Below are positions 33,003 to 43,575 of a stretch of 64,000 nucleotides of DNA, in pieces. Within the stretch, counting starts at the first letter, position 1. Every line of letters begins with the position of its first letter. The notes beneath the pieces were generated by a model. That model had not been told where the DNA came from, did no database searches, and worked only from the letters and a program-made list of their open reading frames with translations. Source of the DNA: Ciborinia camelliae (lineage: Eukaryota; Ascomycota; Leotiomycetes; Helotiales; Sclerotiniaceae); assembly GCA_025890175.1 (NCBI GenBank), contig JANPYM010000014.1:1192299-1256298 (forward strand), read 5' to 3'. The position numbers and the translations under genes were made by a program.

Positions 33003-33108
33003 AGTTCGATGGTCTAATGGTTATGATATCTCGTTCACATACTGTGAATTCACTCCTGAACTCAGTTCTGGACCGAGATGGTTCCGGGTTCGAGACCCGG
33101 TCGGACTA
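33003..33108 (+). tRNA. tRNA-Val (anticodon CAC) with a 33-nt intron
   Basis: Acceptor stem AGTTCGA (33003-33009) pairs with TCGGACT (33101-33107); discriminator A 33108. D-arm contains GGTCTAATGGTTATGAT (A box). Anticodon stem TCTCG (33029-33033) pairs with CGAGA (33074-33078), loop TTCACA plus C33073, anticodon CAC at 33036-33038. The intron 33040-33072 lies one base 3' of the anticodon, the canonical nuclear tRNA position. T stem CCGGG/CCCGG encloses TTCGAGA (B box). CCA is not encoded, as expected in eukaryotes. Confidence 0.95.
33040..33072 (+). other. tRNA-Val intron
   Basis: 33 nt between A37 and C38 of the tRNA, to be removed by the tRNA splicing endonuclease. Bases CTGTGAA near its start can pair with the anticodon-loop region (TTCACA), as in the canonical anticodon-intron helix. 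Confidence 0.85.
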
Positions 33109-33346: not shown

Positions 33347-33751
33347 TGATAAAATGACGCCCGGCATCAATGAACGGGCGTCAGTTTAAATGAATATTTT
33401 AATTATGCCACCAATTCGGTACTAAAGTTAAATGTATAAAAAATAAAGCTAAAGCTTGTGCTACCCTACTTGCCCTCCTGCTCTCCTGCCCTCCTGCCCC
33501 CTACTCATACTAGCTTTTCCGAACCGAATCAGTCGTTCTAGTGATCGATGCGGATCGAATTATAGCTTCCGGGGAGAAGGGAAAGGGAGGAAGGGTAGAA
33601 CGGTTGAAGAGTAGAGCGGTAGAATAAGGAGGATGAAGATAGGGCTTATAACATTTTTTTATACGTTTCGCCTTTGATCCGAATCAGTCCTGCAATTAAA
33701 CCATTCAATTAAACCAACGCCCGCATGGGGGCGGGTGGCGTCATTTTATCA
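33347..33751. repeat. MITE-like element, about 405 bp, with inverted ends and subterminal hairpins
   Basis: Ends are TGATAAAATGACGCC (33347-33361) and its perfect inverse (33737-33751). Just inside the left end GACGCCCG and CGGGCGTC form a perfect subterminal hairpin (about 33356-33382). Inside the right end CGCCCGC and GCGGG pair similarly. No ORF. Flanks show no clear target duplication. Likely a non-autonomous class II element. Confidence 0.7.
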
Positions 33752-34984: not shown

Positions 34985-37900
34985 ATGATTTTCCCCAAAG
35001 CAGCAGTGTGGGCTGCGGCTCTGGGTCTTACCGTTTCGACGGTTTTGAGTGAGAGTTCTGGTGGAAATCTTAGTGATAAAGTAGCGAGAGCAGAGGAAGC
35101 GCCTGTCGTGTAAGTTTACTTTTGAATGTCTAAGTTTTGAATGGAGGTATCGATTTCGTTTGAAGGAAATATTCACTAACAACGGCTTCAACTGTACAGA
35201 GCTAAACGACAGTTTTCACCCTCAAATCCTCAAGATGGTCTTTCGATTGCCAATCTCGTGAAATCACGAGGATTGACCGACCGCTCTTCTATCGCTGACT
35301 TCCTAGGCTCGTCAGGTATGGATCATAGCTCAATATCTGATTTCATGTCACAATTATTCGGGGGCAAAGGCGGGAAATCGGGCTTTGGTCCTGGAGGGTC
35401 CAACGGCCTTGGTGGTTCTAGCCAGGGAGGCAGCAATAACTTCCCAGGGGGTTTTGGCCATGCTGGTAATAGCGGTGGACATAAAGGATCAAACGGATTT
35501 CCTAAATTTCCTGGCTTCTCTGATGTCTTTGGAGATGATGATTACCCAAACAACAGCCCAGGGAGTAACTATCCAGGAGGTCATGGGGGCCAAGGAAGTG
35601 GTTCAGGTCAAGGAAGCGGTTCAGGCCTTGGAAGTAATGGATATTGGTCTCCCTACACTCCACTCTTCGAATTTCTACAAGGTTTAGGGGTTGATCCATA
35701 TTATACCTCCCAGTTTCTCTACAGTTTGGATGCTACTGCCGTCGCCCACTTTTTAAAAGGGCCCGGTGACAGTTCCATCTCTGTCTTTATGCGGGAGGCC
35801 GCTGCTGGCGTTTACTCAATCGGCGATTTTCTTACCTATTTGGATGACCTCTCCCGCTATAACTTCTTACAATCGTTGGGTTTCCCTTTGATTAGCGGTT
35901 TTCCAAACCCGCCCGTATCTCCACTCCCACCGAACTTGTTGGTTACTTCAACTTCCGCATCCCAAGTTCTTGTTGGAGGGACTTCGACTACTTCAACTTC
36001 CTCAAGCCAAATTGGTCTTGTAAGCACTCCCACTTCTAGAATAAGCACTCCCACTTCTAGAACATCCACTTCTGCAAGTGGAAATGCTTTTGTAAGCACT
36101 CCAACTTCTAGAACATCCACTTCTGCAAGTGGAAATGCTTTTGTAAGCACTCCAACTTCTAGAACATCCAGTTCTGCAAGTGGAAATGCTTTTGTAAGCA
36201 CTCCAACTTCTAGAACATCCAGTTCTACAAGTGGAAATGCTTTTGTAAGCACTCCAACTTCTAGAACATCCGGTTCTACAAGTGGAAATGCTTTTGTAAG
36301 CACTCCAACTTCTAGAACATCCGGTTCTACAAGTGGAAATGCTTTTGTAAGCACTCCAACTTCTAGAACATCCAGTTCTACAAGTGGAAATGCTTTTGTA
36401 AGCACTCCAACTTCTAGAACTTCAACTTCCTCAAGCCAAATTGGTCTTGTAAGCACTCCAACTTCTAGAATAAGCACTCCCACTTCAAGAACATTCACTT
36501 CTGCAACCGGGAATCCTTTATCGCCCTCAACATCTAGAACTTCAACTTCCTCAAGCCAAATTGGTCTTGTAAGCACTCCAACTTCTAGAATAAGCACTCC
36601 CACTTCAAGAACATTCACTTCTGCAACCGGGAATCCTTTATCGCCCTCAACATCTAGAACTTCAACTTCCTCAAGCCAAGTTGGTCTTGTAAGCACTCCC
36701 ACTTCTAGAACATTCACTTCTGCAACCGGGAATCCTTTATCGCCCTCAACATCTAGAACTTCAACTTCCTCAAGCCAAGTTGGTCTTATAAGCACTTCCT
36801 CATCTACAAGCTCGGTAGCAACTCTGAGAACTTCCAGCACCAGTTCTTCGCCCCGTTCTAGTTCAAGCTCCGTATGATTTCTTAACCCTTTGGTGAACCA
36901 ATGCTAATATTGGAAAGTCCTCGATACTATCACTAGTAGGATCGACTTCGACTTCAAGTTCCTTTACCCGTTCCACTTCTAGTTCTGTATGGTACCCCAG
37001 GCCCAAGATAAATAAATCACTGCTAATCTTGAATAGTCGGTACTATCACTAGTTTCAAGTTCCCCGATCCGTTCCAGTTCTGTATGATTTTCTTATCCCT
37101 AAGATGATTCAATGCTAACAATTTTGGACAGACGTCGGCCCGACCATTAAGCGCGTCAACTTCAAGTTCCTTTACCCGTTCCACTTCTAGTTCTGTATGG
37201 TACCCCAGGCTTAAGATAAATAAATCAATGCTAATTTGGATAGTCGGCACTATCACTAGTTGCATCAACTTCAAGTTCCCCGATCCGTTTCAGTTCCAGT
37301 TCCAGTTCTGTATGATTTTCTTGTCCCTAAGATAAATCAATGCTAATAATTTTGAACAGACGTCGGCCCGACCATTAAGCGCGTCAACTTCAAGTTCTTC
37401 GACCTTAATTTCCTCGATCCGTTCCAGTTCCAGTTCCAGCTCTGTATGATTTCTTGTCCCTAAGATGAACCAATGCTAATAATTTTGAACAGACGTCGGC
37501 CCGACCATTAAGCGCGTCGACTTCAAGTTCTTCGACCTTAATTTCCTCTATCCGTTCCAGTTCCAGTTCTGTATGATTTTCCATGCCTAACATAAATAAA
37601 TCATTACTAATTTGGATAGTCGATATTATCACTAGTTGCATCGACTTCAAGTTCTTTGCCACGTTCTAGTTCTACTTCTAGTTCTGTATGATATTCCTCG
37701 CTCAACATAAATAAATCAATCAATACTAATATTCGATAGTCCTCGGCCCGACCATTAAGCGCATCGACGTCAAGTTCTTTGCCACGTTCTAGTTCTACTT
37801 CTAGTTCTGTATGATATTCCTCGCTCAACATAAATCAGTCAATACTAATATTCGATAGTCCTCGGCCCGACCATTAAGCGCATCGACGTCAAGTTCTTCG

Positions 37901-40900
37901 ACCTCAGGTCCTTTCACCCGTTCCAGTTCCAGTTCTGTATGATTTCCCTCTTAATATAAATAAATTGATGCTAATATTGAATAGTCCTCGGTACTATCAC
38001 TAGTTGCATCGACTTCAAGTTCCTTAACTCGTTCCAGTTCTACCTCTGGTTCTGTATGATTTTTCATGCCTAACAAACAAATTAATGCTAATAATTTTGG
38101 ATAGTCATCGGCCCGACCATTAAGCGCATCGACTTCAAGTTCTTCGACCTCAAGTCCTTCCACTCGTTCCAGTTCTAGTTCTGTATGATATTCCTCGCCC
38201 AACATAAATAGATCAATACTAATTTTGGATACCTTAGTCATCGGCCCGACCATTAAGCGCATCAACCTCGAGCTCCTTGACCCGTTCCAGTTCTAGTTCT
38301 GTATGAATTTCCATGCTTAAAACAAATTAATGCTAATAATTTGGGATAGTCCTCGGTACTATCACTAGTTTCATCGACTTCAAGTTTCTCTGCACGTTCC
38401 AGTTCTAGTTCTAGTTCTGTATGCTTTGCCTTGTTCTAATGGTAGTAAACGCTAATTTGGATAGTCTACAATACGGCCATTAGCCTCATCGAGTTCAACA
38501 AGCTCAACGAGCTTTTCAGTTCGTTCAAGCTCTAGCTCTGTATGTTTTGCCTTGTTCTAATAATAGTAAACGCTAATTTGGATAGTCTACAATACGGCCA
38601 TTAGCCTCATCAAGCTCAACAAGCTCAACGAGTTCTCCAGTTCGTTCAAGCTCTAGTTCCGTACGTCTTTTCTTATATTTTGTATAAGATAATGGGATGC
38701 TAATTTGACTAGTCTTCGATAATATCATTAGCCTCATCGAGTTCAACAAGCTCAACGAGCTTTTCAGTTCGTTCAAGCTCTAGCTCTGTATGTTTTGCCT
38801 TGTTCTAATGGCAGTAAACGCTAATTTGGATAGTCTACAATACGGCCATTAGCCTCATCGAGTTCAACAAGCTCAACGAGCTTTTCAGTTCGTTCAAGCT
38901 CTAGCTCTGTATGTTTTGCCTTGTTCTAATGGCAGTAAACGCTAATTTGGATAGTCTACAATACGGCCATTAGCCTCATCGAGCTCAACGAGTTCCTCGG
39001 TCCGCTCCAGCTCTACCTCCGTATGATTTCTTCCATCCTGGCTATAATAAGTGAATGCTAATGTGTATAGTCTTCCGTACAACCATTAGCCTCATCAAGC
39101 TCAACTAGCTTCTCAATCCGTTCTAGCTCCAGTTCTGGTTCTAGTTCTGTCCGCTCTAGCTCTACCTCCGTATGCTTTCCACCTTGACTATAATAACTGA
39201 ATGCTAATGTGTATAGTCTTCTGTACAACCATTAGCCTCATCAAGCTCAACGAGCTTCTCAATCCGTTCTAGCTCCAGCTCTGGTTCTAGTTCTATCCGC
39301 TTTAGCTCCGTACGTCTTTTTTTGGTATATTGTATATGATGAATCGAGTATTAATTTGTATAGTCTTCCGTACAACCATTAGCTTCATCAAGCTCAACCA
39401 GCTTCTCAATCCGTTCTAGCTCCAGCTCTGGTTCTAGTTCTATCCGCTCTAGCTCCGTATGTCTTTTTTTGGTATATTGTATGTGATGAATCGAGTATTA
39501 ATTTGTATAGTCTTCTGTACAACCATTAGCCTCATCAAGCTCAACTAGCTCCTTAATCCGCTCCAGCTCCAGCTCTGGTTCTAGTTCTATCCGCTTCAGC
39601 TCTAGTTCTGTACGCTTTCTTTCATTATATCTACAATAATTAAATACTAATTTTTATAGTCTTCCGTACAACCATTAGCCTCATCAAGCTCAACGAGCTC
39701 AACAAGCTCTTCAGTCCGTTCCAGTTCTAGTACTAGCTTCGTACTTCCATTGCCTTCATCAAGCTCTAGTTCTGTATGTCTTTTCTGGTATATTGTGTAT
39801 GAATTGAATGCTAATTTGTGTGTAGTCTTCCGTGCGAACATTAGCTTCATTAAGCTCAACAAGCTCAATAAGCTCTTCAGTCCGTTCCAGTTCCAGTACT
39901 AGCTTTGTACTTCCATTGCCTTCATCAAGCTCTAGTTCTGTATGTCTTTTCTGGTATATTGTGTATGAATTGAATGCTAATTTGTGTGTAGTCTTCCGTG
40001 CGAACATTAGCTTCATTAAGCTCAACAAGCTCAATAAGCTCTTCAGTCCGTTCCAGTTCCAGTACTAGCTTTATACTTCCATTGCCTTCATCAACCTCAA
40101 CGAGTTCCTCGGTCCGTTCAAGTTCTAGCTCTGTATGTTTTTTCTGGTATATTATGTGTGTTAAACTGGATGCTAATTTATATAGTCTTCCGTGCAACCA
40201 TTAGCCTCATCAAGCTCAACGAGTTCATCGGTCCGCTTCAGTTCTAGTACTAGCTTCGTACTTCCATTGCCTTCATCAACCTCAACGAGTTCATCGGTCC
40301 GTTCAAGCTCTAGCTCTGTATGTCTTTTCTGGTATATTGTGTGTGATGAAGTGGATGCTAATTTATATACCTAGTCTTCCGTGCAACCATTAGCTTCATC
40401 AAGCTCAACGAGTTCCTCGGTCCGTTCCAGTTCCGTATGCTTTCCCTTATCTTATGTATGGAAAATGCCTTCTAACAGATTGCTAGTCACTGTCTTCATC
40501 CAGTACATCTGCTGTAGGACAGAGTCTCAGCTCTACTTCGTTACGGGTAATAAAATCTTTCCATTTTAAATTTATCCCCAATATGACTATGTAATGCTAA
40601 TAGATGTACAGTCATCCTCTTCCTCCCTCAGTAGCACTTCGGCTTTAGCTCTATCGACAAGCTCTACGTCATCTAGGGTAATAATACTTTCTCCTGTCAT
40701 ATATACACACACATAACTTGATATTTAAATATGAATGCTAAAAGCTTTATAGTTATCGTCATCTTCTTCAAGTAGCACTTCGACTTTGGCTCTAGTGACA
40801 AGCTCCACGTCATCTAGGGTAATAAACTTTTTTCTTATATATATATATGATGTTTGATGGCCATGTTAATGCTAATATTTCTACAGGCATCATCGTCATC

Positions 40901-43575
40901 TTCCTCATCCTCTTCCTCCCCAAGTACCTCAGCCGTAGCTTTATCGACTAGCTCCACCTTGACTCGGGTAAAACATTTCTCTTTCCTATGGTGTGATTTG
41001 CGCCACGAGAATGCAATGCTAATATTTATATAGGCATCCTCTTCTTCTACCTCACCTATCACTTTCGGTGCTAGCTCTACATCATCTAGGGTAAAAGATT
41101 TCTCTTCTTTTTTTTTGCTATTGGGTCACAAGAATGCTAATAAAGGTACCGATATATATAGATATCAAGCACATCCTCTAGTAGCACCACCAGTCCAGGT
41201 CTAGCTGTTAGCTCTACATCGTCAAGGGTAAAATATTCTCTTCTTTTATATATATGGAAATGTAGATTCTAATACTTGTATAGGCATCCTCTTCTACCTC
41301 TAGCAGCCCTACTAGTCCAGTTCTAGCTGTTAGCTCTACTTCTTCTGGAGTAAAATATTCTCTTCCTTATGTTATGGAATGGAAATTTAAATGCTAATAT
41401 TTATATAGACATCAAGTACATCCCCTCGCAGTACATCAACAGTTTCTTTGGGGGCTAGCTCTACATCCTCTTCTTCTCGTAGCACCACCAGCACCACCAG
41501 TCCAGCTCTAGCTTTAAGTTCTACTTCATCTCTGGTAAGATACATCTTTCCATTCCCCCCTAATTTTCATATGTTGAAAAAGTTACACCATTGCTAACTT
41601 GTAATATAGTCATCTTCTTCGAGTGGATCTACATCCAGGTCCACAACAACTCTCTTATCTGTCGTTAGTTCCGGTTCCAGTTCCAGCAGGGTAAATTTTA
41701 ACTTCTCTTTCCCTGGACCCTTTTTATATCATTGATATGTTTTTAATCTATTCTATAGTCATCTTCCTCCAGTTTAAGCTCCTCGTCTTCATCCCAGTTG
41801 GTATGTTTTTCTCTCAATTAATCTCACAAATACCTTTTTTTTACGATGAGTATTAACAAATCATAAAGCCCGTAGTTGCCTCGTCTAGTAGTACCCTTAC
41901 AACATCCACAAGATCCACTTCATCTTCTAGCTCCGTCATCCTGAGCGCAAGTGCAGCCGCCAGTGTAATAATATCGCCCGACTCCACATGCGGCTTCCAT
42001 TCCACCACGAATCTTCAATATACGTGTCAAGGAAGTGTGTACGGAAATTGTTGTTCACGATTTGGATACTGTGGTGCTGCAATCGATTGGTGTGGGGCCG
42101 GCTGTAACCCTCTTTATGGAACCTGTGGATTGGAGCAGTATTCATCGTCATCGTCATCTGCTGCGGTAATTGCTTCTCTCCCAATTCTATCTCATATTTT
42201 CTTCTTTGTAATCCATATTAATATATTTATAGGCTCAGGGACAGAGTACCACTTCAACCATAAGAGTAGTTACACAGAGTACTACTTCGACTACATTACT
42301 CGTTGTAACTTCGAGTTCTAGGTCTTCATCAACAACACTCGTGGTTAGTCTTTCTTTCCCGGGACCATGTTACCTCTCTGCTTTGGTTATGAATATTAAC
42401 AGATCGAATAGGCCCAAAGCTCGAGTACCACCAGTTCGACTGCACGACTCGTTACAACTTCGAGTTCTAGTTCTTCGTCAACAACAGTTGTGGTTAGTCT
42501 TTCTTTCCCAGAATTACATCTTACGTTTGATTTTATGGTGACGGATGTTGATATGATAATAGGCCCAGACATTGAGTACCAGTTCAACTGCAAGAGCAGC
42601 CACTACATCATCTTCCAGTACCAGTTCAACTGCAAGAGCAGCAACTACATCATCTTCCAGTACAAGTTCAACGGCAAGAGCAGCCACCGTAAGCGGAAGT
42701 TCAACAGCATCATTATCAGCCAATCCCTCCGCTAGCGCTTGCAAACCAGTCACGGCCCCTGCCGTAACCCTCGCATTAACCGCCACCGACTGCTGTAAAT
42801 ACTATGTCACAAAAGCCGGTGACACATGTGCGAGCATTGCCGCCCAAGGAATTCTCGGCTTAGATGTCGTTGTTCTAGCTCTTCTGAATCCAGGCTTGAC
42901 ATGTGGAGCGCAAGGGCCCCAAGTCGGCGTCGCCGTTTGTATACAGAATGTACAATTGTCCCTTGCAGGTTCTTTGGTATCAGCTTCTTCCTCTACCGAT
43001 GTATCCTCAGCAGTCGCGACCCCAACCCCATCTCAAGCCGTTCCTCAAAGTTTCTTCATCCAGGCTAGAAATTCTGGAACTGGAGCCGATGGAACTGACC
43101 TCATGATTCAACAAGCCTCGGAATATTTCGCCGGATTTAGACTTACTTATGGTCAACAAGTATTTCCATTTACATATGACCCCGCTACTGGGTATTTGGC
43201 ATCGGGTCTATATATTCTATGGGCGACGGCATCATATGTTCCCCCGTCTATTAAAGTGGCCCCGATAGGCTACACAGGATGGGTGGTGCCGGCTTGGCCA
43301 TTGGTTTGTAGCATAGATGGCAATTTGAAAGTCTCGTGTACGGCCAATGGAAATGTCTATGGCAAATTTTATATCATTAATGGTATGTTATTCCTTTCTT
43401 AGAATCCCCTTCAGCAGTCCAGGGAAATCCAATTAAATGCAACATTCTCACAAATTCAATAGCAAATGGTGATGGACAAACAGAACTTGCCATTGGAAAT
43501 GGTGCGACCACGAGTTCACTCATTGTTGCGCCAGTTGATCTCTACCTTGTTGAAAACATCGAGGAGGATGATTAG
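34985..43575 (+). CDS. Giant secreted chitin-binding protein (CBM18 + LysM) with a 44-exon Ser/Thr-rich repeat stalk
   Basis: Spliced product about 2,045 aa from 44 exons. Exon 1 (34985-35109) encodes a signal peptide (MIFPKAAVWAAALGLTVSTV), and exon 2 (35200-36871) opens with a possible Kex2 site (AKR). Residues about 55-290 are a Gly/Ser-rich region with SIADFLGSSG/SSISDFM/SIGDFLTYL motifs of unknown function, followed by intronless S/T-rich repeats. Exons 3-39 (36918-41800) form the intron-split stalk. Exon 40 (41869-42165) carries a hevein-type CBM18 domain with the expected cysteine pattern (CQGSVYGNCCSRFGYCG, then CGAGCNPLYGTC; about residues 1613-1655). Exon 43 (42563-43382) carries a LysM domain (CCKYYVTKAGDTCASIAAQ, LLNPGLTC, VGVAVCI; about 1812-1865) and a C-terminal domain starting QSFFIQARNSGTGADG. 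Exon 44 (43463-43575) ends the protein at NIEEDD. Likely a cell-wall or secreted chitin binder. The intron count depends on splice sites read by eye. Confidence 0.82.
36052..36871 (+). repeat. In-exon minisatellite: seven 51-bp units then 120-bp units (two identical)
   Basis: Seven 51-bp units encode GNAFVSTPTSRTS plus a variable S/T/A/G tetrapeptide (about 36052-36420). Two 120-bp units follow, at 36421-36540 and 36541-36660. They are identical base for base, and a shortened third copy follows. Unit lengths are multiples of three. Each unit contains GTAAGCACTCC and ACTTCTAG, donor- and acceptor-like strings. Confidence 0.93.
36872..42562 (+). repeat. Tandem array of intron-exon units (41 introns, 40 symmetric phase-0 exons)
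   Basis: Exons (start-end): 36918-36986, 37037-37081, 37132-37194, 37244-37309, 37360-37443, 37493-37570, 37620-37685, 37740-37808, 37859-37936, 37985-38053, 38105-38182, 38238-38300, 38350-38418, 38465-38539, 38586-38660, 38713-38787, 38834-38908, 38955-39020, 39071-39169, 39217-39309, 39364-39456, 39511-39609, 39660-39773, 39826-39939, 39992-40132, 40186-40317, 40375-40434, 40487-40546, 40612-40677, 40753-40818, 40887-40967, 41034-41090, 41162-41227, 41284-41349, 41409-41534, 41610-41690, 41759-41800, 41869-42165, 42233-42343, 42412-42492. Every length is divisible by three and every intron is phase 0. Introns are mostly 46-55 nt on the left and up to about 75 nt on the right, with TGCTAAT/CGCTAAT/TACTAAT-like branch sites and TAG or CAG ends. 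Exons typically start TCN TCN and end CGTTCCAGTTCT-like (R-S-S-S). Confidence 0.85.

Follow-up and report, generated by a model that had tools for sequence, protein, structure and literature searches.

The window considered here is a stretch of 64,000 nucleotides (nt) from the genome of Ciborinia camelliae, which comprises 46.2 Mb in 27 contigs. On its forward strand, on a contig of about 1.7 Mb, lies a predicted gene that reads from an ATG at position 34985 to a stop codon ending at 43575 and that consists, in our curated model, of 44 exons and 43 introns, all of the latter with GT-AG ends. Its 6138 coding nucleotides, including the stop, correspond to a protein of 2045 residues, read without internal stops and without a frameshift. 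Between a long second exon and a long penultimate exon the gene is built as an array in which 40 mini-exons (E3–E42) alternate with 41 short introns (I2–I42). A preliminary description of this DNA had claimed about 43 introns, an exon of 1.67 kb, short exons of 42–297 nt, a regular alternation of GT donors, CTAAT branch motifs and AG acceptors, and one open frame through the whole array, all of which agrees with the curated model.

The gene begins with exon 1 (34985–35109, 125 nt), which encodes a hydrophobic N-terminus, followed by intron 1 (35110–35199, 90 nt; GTAAGT, CACTAAC, CAG), which is in phase 2. Exon 2 (35200–36871, 1672 nt) encodes an N-terminal region that is partly Gly-rich and then turns into Ser/Thr tandem repeats, the latter comprising intronless coding repeats at 36042–36796 with periods of 51, 120 and 99 nt, all multiples of three. 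The array opens with introns 2–29 and exons 3–29 (36872–40486), which form 28 homologous intron-bearing units, those of I2–I28 measuring 95–193 nt, and continues with a second family of seven units, exons 30–36 with introns 30–36 (40487–41408), where the introns are longer (56–75 nt) and have the donors GTAATA or GTAAAA. Exons 37–39 with introns 37–39 follow (41409–41868; I38 is linked to I39 and I37 is unlinked), and then exon 40 (41869–42165, 297 nt), which encodes a hevein-like module of chitin-binding type 1 (CBM18-like). A Ser/Thr linker is encoded in the segment of introns 40–42 and exons 41–42 (42166–42562), where I41 is homologous to I42. Exon 43 (42563–43382, 820 nt) contains 42-nt coding repeats, a LysM-like module and a conserved C-terminal domain; intron 43 (43383–43462) is in phase 1, and exon 44 (43463–43575) ends with the stop TAG at 43573–43575.

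Exon lengths in the array are strictly regular and intron lengths are not: each of the 40 mini-exons (42–297 nt) has a length divisible by three and all 41 array introns (46–75 nt) are in phase 0, while the intron lengths are distributed 9/16/16 among the three residues modulo 3. In the gene as a whole, 40 of the 44 exons are multiples of three bounded by phase-0 introns, and exons 2 and 43 together account for 2492 of the 6138 coding nucleotides. A CTAAT-like branch motif is located 9–15 nt from the intron end in 39/41 array introns, the exceptions being I31 and I34; in five of the 41 (I29, I30, I31, I34 and I41) a single AG intervenes between branch motif and acceptor.

Two other elements were observed upstream of the gene. 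About 1.2 kb from its start, positions 33347–33751 hold a MITE-like element with perfect 15-bp terminal inverted repeats (TGATAAAATGACGCC / GGCGTCATTTTATCA), of which diverged copies or pieces are present on 12 other contigs. A tRNA-like gene with an intron was recognised by eye at approximately 33006–33108; ARAGORN, run with its bacterial setting, called no tRNA in the window.

The curated model was built from the logic of the repeated units, using the reading frame, and was then cross-checked with a frame-blind splice chain. Frame-aware dynamic programming, which produced 59 introns with exons 2 and 43 over-split at low intron cost and 54, 51, 45 and 44 introns at rising cost, was dropped in favour of the curated model. 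The frame-blind chain combines donor, branch and acceptor scores with weights that were set by hand rather than trained. Applied to positions 36800–42600 at a cost of 7, it places 39 introns and agrees exactly with the curated model on 35 of that model's 41; of the 38 internal exons in the chain, 36 have lengths divisible by three, and its intron lengths modulo 3 are distributed 7/17/15. Over costs of 6 to 8, the number of introns on which the chain and the curated model agree goes from 36 to 35. All mismatches fall in I30–I36, where some donors are ambiguous in the chain: another donor is chosen for I30, I33, I35 and I36, and I31 and I34 are missed. The array scores 128.8, compared with means of 33.4, 36.9 and 50.4 for Markov controls of order 2, 3 and 5 (30 sequences each; maximum 69.2) and a top score of 35.4 among those of 42 equal-size stretches of the window, both strands included, that do not overlap the array. 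The array is thus recovered without knowledge of the frame at a score far beyond the chance controls.

Evidence on translation comes from comparison of the units with one another. For this comparison a unit was defined as half an exon, an intron and half of the next exon, and pairs of units were taken from a minimum spanning tree, so that each divergence is counted approximately once. Among 19 close pairs, substitutions at codon positions 1, 2 and 3 number 17/474, 22/473 and 56/472, respectively, and those in intron interiors and at splice sites number 78/748 and 7/170. The third position therefore differs from the first two taken together (56/472 versus 39/947, p=1.2e-7) and does not differ from the intron interior (p=0.45), while splice sites change less than intron interiors (p=0.008). 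Indels in the same pairs are multiples of three in 34/44 cases in exons versus 7/27 in introns (p=4.8e-5). Two alternative definitions of the unit gave 26/592, 27/592, 85/591 and 31/623, 38/625, 96/624 substitutions at the three codon positions, with indels divisible by three in 27/36 and 21/40 cases in exons and in 13/49 and 15/55 cases in introns. The codon-position pattern is significant separately in I2–I14 (p=0.018) and in I15–I28 (p=3.6e-7); I30–I38 and I40–I42 contain no close pairs, and a looser threshold yields p=0.051 and p=0.12, respectively. These tests replace a first comparison of exons and introns over the 45 closest pairs, in which poor alignments and re-use of units were not guarded against (pS 0.35 and pN 0.13; divergence 0.104 in introns and 0.106 in exons; indels divisible by three in 61/121 cases in exons and 32/131 in introns).

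Taken together, the way substitutions are distributed over codon positions and splice sites and the prevalence of exon indels in multiples of three make it very likely that translation of the mini-exons follows the predicted frame, which supports the earlier reading of the locus as one translated and spliced gene. Retention of any of the 43 introns would break the reading, since an in-frame stop interrupts every one of the ten introns with lengths divisible by three, and those free of stops, likewise ten, all have other lengths; the skipping of any single exon among E3–E42, by comparison, preserves the frame. Every intron is presumably removed by splicing in vivo.

The exact acceptor position deserves separate consideration. 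In all 27 units I2–I28 (exon starts from 36918 to 40393) a second AG is found 16–20 nt past the acceptor. In 21 pairs, the initial 18 nt of exons have 8/125, 5/125 and 9/124 substitutions at the three codon positions, that is, no clear excess at the third, compared with 10/385, 18/384 and 52/382 in the remainder of the exons; an ungapped test on the first 18 nt of exons 3–29 likewise gave no clear codon signal (17, 9 and 12 of 156 each). As the exon heads show no clear codon signal, the acceptor is assigned to the first AG there by frame and motif. If the second AG is used throughout, a stop is encountered in every phase starting from introns 2, 6, 10, 14, 18 and 22, and in two of the three phases from intron 26, the third being open over the two exons examined, whereas with the first AG the frame is open through all 40 exons. 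On account of these stops we rejected the second AG as the regular acceptor and take the first AG to be the likelier productive one; the second might serve as an alternative acceptor.

The protein starts with what looks by eye like an N-terminal signal peptide. No Pfam match was found in the N-terminal region encoded by exon 2, and none of the 7987 candidates scored was a homolog of exon 2 at E<=1e-3, so that the connection between the 5' region and the array is drawn from this one genome. Residues 600–1558 include 533 Ser and 103 Thr among 959 and contain recurring motifs such as SVQPLASSSS and SARPLSAS. The CBM18 and LysM domains named in the preliminary description survive as similarities and not as Pfam assignments: exon 40 scores 22.1 bits against PF00187 (Chitin_bind_1, CBM18; cut-off 27.8) and exon 43 scores 18.5 bits against the LysM model PF01476 (cut-off 20.9), both below threshold, while wheat-germ agglutinins in the PDB match exon 40 with E of about 1e-4. 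The two modules are here termed hevein-like and LysM-like, respectively, and the protein is probably chitin-binding. Structure prediction for the C-terminal part gave a mean pLDDT of 33.

Relatives, compared as protein sequences only, are recognised from the C-terminal part, which matches four proteins (P0001–P0004) with 63–83% identity in the alignment. Among the best 7993 candidates by shared words, the C-terminal region is 78% identical to DID88_009774 (P0005) of Monilinia fructigena (Sclerotiniaceae, Helotiales, Leotiomycetes) and 40% identical to CJF30_00008926 (P0006) of Rutstroemia sp. The M. fructigena protein shares the hevein-like module (24.8 bits against PF00187, cut-off 27.8) and a Ser-rich stretch but is annotated with 523 amino acids and without a long array; the Rutstroemia protein, with a homologous C-terminal region and 18.4 bits against the LysM model PF01476 (cut-off 20.9), is annotated with 632 amino acids, also without a long array. 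P0005 is collinear with the predicted protein across the six 3'-most junctions, from E38/E39 to E43/E44, intron 43 included, which supports the removal of the last six introns, although the Ser-rich part is weak evidence in this respect. In P0004 the Ser/Thr linker that joins the CBM18 part to the LysM part is free of intron-like sequence, and I40–I42 are therefore not common to all relatives.

These comparisons bear on the possibility that the locus holds two genes, one whose product, a short Ser/Thr-rich secreted protein, stops at the TGA at 36875 and another, further downstream, for the CBM18/LysM protein, with the array as a non-coding or transcribed spacer. The first array donor, GTATGA, is indeed an immediate stop when left unspliced, in line with the TGA pointed out at 36875 in the preliminary description; the annotated homolog from M. 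fructigena corresponds to the 3' part only, and the codon signal is missing from the exon heads. However, codon constraint in a constant frame in both I2–I14 and I15–I28, exon lengths divisible by three in 40/40 cases and splice sites that change less than intron interiors are all unexpected for a spacer, and the M. fructigena model, which begins within a Ser-rich stretch, may be a truncated prediction. We consider an arrangement of two genes improbable.

To trace the history of the units, each intron with its flanks was linked to others by BLAST. At E<=1e-6 the units form families of 28 (I2–I29), seven (I30–I36), two (I38–I39) and two (I41–I42), while I1, I37, I40 and I43 have no links, only I37 and I40 of these being array introns. 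The stricter E<=1e-9 reduces the families to I2–I28, I31–I32, I34–I36 and I41–I42, and intron sequence on its own, at E<=1e-3, links I2–I28 without I24 (26 introns), I32-I33-I35-I36, and I41–I42. Average-linkage clustering of intron distances, which merged nearly all introns, was superseded by these links. No exact repeat in the array is longer than one of at least 160 and less than 180 nt, which occurs at 39741 and 39907 and extends from exon 25 through intron 25 into exon 26; TRF calls tandem arrays with periods of 121, 147 and 166 nt, among others. Across introns 2–38 the divergence of the introns correlates with that of the downstream and upstream exon flanks (Spearman 0.35 and 0.18, respectively), and none of 2000 permutations reached as high a value for either flank. 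Both the links across intron and flanks and the correlated divergence argue that the intron belongs to the duplicated unit, that is, that it travels with the exon sequence. This part of the preliminary description stands; its picture of a single uniform minisatellite does not, given families of 28, 7, 2 and 2 units with I37 and I40 unlinked. The array is better described as the product of several layered or nested expansions, and a common origin of all 41 introns is not established by the links. An origin of the introns from exon repeats was considered on the basis of three intron-exon matches of 12–15 nt (E 0.025–0.038), which were judged to be due to chance. With no exact repeat as long as 180 nt, an artefact of assembly seems unlikely in a contig of 1.7 Mb.

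Exons 2 and 43 contain separate, intronless repeats in multiples of three (51- and 42-nt units). The 51-nt unit of the coding minisatellite in exon 2 (36042–36470) holds the splice-like words GTAAGC and TTCTAG.

Searches of the C. camelliae genome itself with queries from the C- and N-terminal parts match only this locus, as expected of a single-copy gene. Seven DNA segments that together span the greater part of the array (38788–39020 and 40521–40818 were not among the queries, and very common words were skipped) match this locus and a single fragment elsewhere. The fragment, on the minus strand of contig C11 (184586–184711), is identical at 123 of 126 bases to positions 36844–36969 of the window; it contains the whole of intron I2 with exon flanks, and no open frame of 150 codons extends over it. 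With the intron retained, the fragment must have moved as DNA or as unspliced RNA.

Repeated independent insertion of introner-like elements into one gene, in place of duplication of intron and exon together, would also give an array of similar introns, and both the membership of the I2–I29 introns largely in one sequence family and the presence of one unit elsewhere in the genome are in its favour. Yet the search with seven segments returned this locus and one 126-bp fragment only, that fragment includes exon sequence as well, intron and flank divergence are correlated, and recent duplicates span intron and exon. At the sensitivity of the search, the array introns are not dispersed introners in this genome, and we regard their origin by repeated insertion as very improbable. 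Least credible is a decaying gene, in which a formerly coding array has degenerated or is mostly left out in splicing: although some units are highly diverged and exon heads are weakly constrained, 2045 codons are read without a stop or frameshift, GT-AG ends are intact at all 43 introns and the coding pattern of substitution persists among closely related units.

The explanation that we favour with considerable confidence is a gene for a single, presumably secreted protein of about 2045 residues in which the mini-exon array of the stalk has grown by tandem duplication of introns with exons. The protein would consist of the N-terminal region, a Ser/Thr-rich stalk of more than 1000 residues, the hevein-like and LysM-like end and the conserved C-terminal domain, with most of the stalk encoded by 40 mini-exons split by short phase-0 spliceosomal introns. 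A unit made of an exon with length divisible by three and a phase-0 intron would be neutral with respect to the frame, so that gain or loss of units would change the length of the stalk and leave the frame intact; for the same reason intron number would rise with stalk length. Unequal exchange among the Ser-rich repeats is the presumed recombination mechanism, and it would carry the introns along. In terms of function, we infer a role in wall or chitin binding, in which the stalk could be mucin-like and O-glycosylated and place the chitin-binding head in the wall or away from it.

An extension of this explanation is that the stalk varies in length and composition, with mini-exons gained or lost between strains and skipped in various combinations, and that the locus sheds intron-bearing fragments, of which the one on contig C11 would be an example, able to seed introns elsewhere. 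We offer it tentatively and consider it rather unlikely; if true, one chitin-binding surface protein would come in many stalk lengths.

The preliminary description placed the intron number far outside the norm, and published averages bear this out. The averages are 2.9 exons per gene in Monilinia vaccinii-corymbosi (PMC8022979) and 2.7 introns per gene in Phialocephala subalpina (PMC5148876), both related fungi, and 1.6 introns per transcript have been inferred for the ascomycete ancestor (PMC11649378). A literature search, covering few subscription journals, returned no report of a comparable array in a leotiomycete and no printed figure for the maximum number of introns per gene in such genomes. 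With 43 introns, this gene would be a case in which a growing protein repeat, as opposed to the insertion of introns, drives up the intron number. Its 28 related copies of intron plus exon in one molecule would be naturally suited to studying how strongly splice sites are constrained, how tandem duplication adds introns, and how accurately splicing proceeds with dozens of similar donors and acceptors side by side. The case is also a hint that genes of this type may be cut short in automated annotation.

Several known systems were compared with the array. Genes for SP7 effectors possess a conserved intron that precedes the first repeat; the available part of that report describes no such array (PMC11333574); nor is one shown in the available part of PMC3488318. 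Introner-like elements are families of similar fungal spliceosomal introns that have spread to different genes (PMC4457414), unlike the array introns, which are found in one gene and one stray 126-bp fragment. Schistosome micro-exon genes carry much of their coding sequence in very small symmetrical exons that can be skipped in frame (PMC4350168); there the organism is an animal parasite and the exons serve alternative splicing, and the likeness is one of exon symmetry, with no claim of homology. The closest precedent is CNN00420 of Cryptococcus neoformans, in which introns were gained as repeats that contain an intron expanded (Sharpton et al. 2008, PMC2395259). In that single-copy gene, repeats of about 107 nt comprise exon ends and a full intron, short exonic repeats are also present, the six introns have splicing supported by ESTs, and the number of repeats differs among strains (PMC2395259). 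The C. camelliae gene is likewise single-copy, with a repeat unit made of exon ends and a complete intron and with short exonic repeats in addition. It differs in being known from the DNA of one genome, in having 43 introns with 28 units in one family, and in belonging to an ascomycete lineage whose genes have few introns, and by this analogy it would represent an extreme ascomycete case of the same kind.
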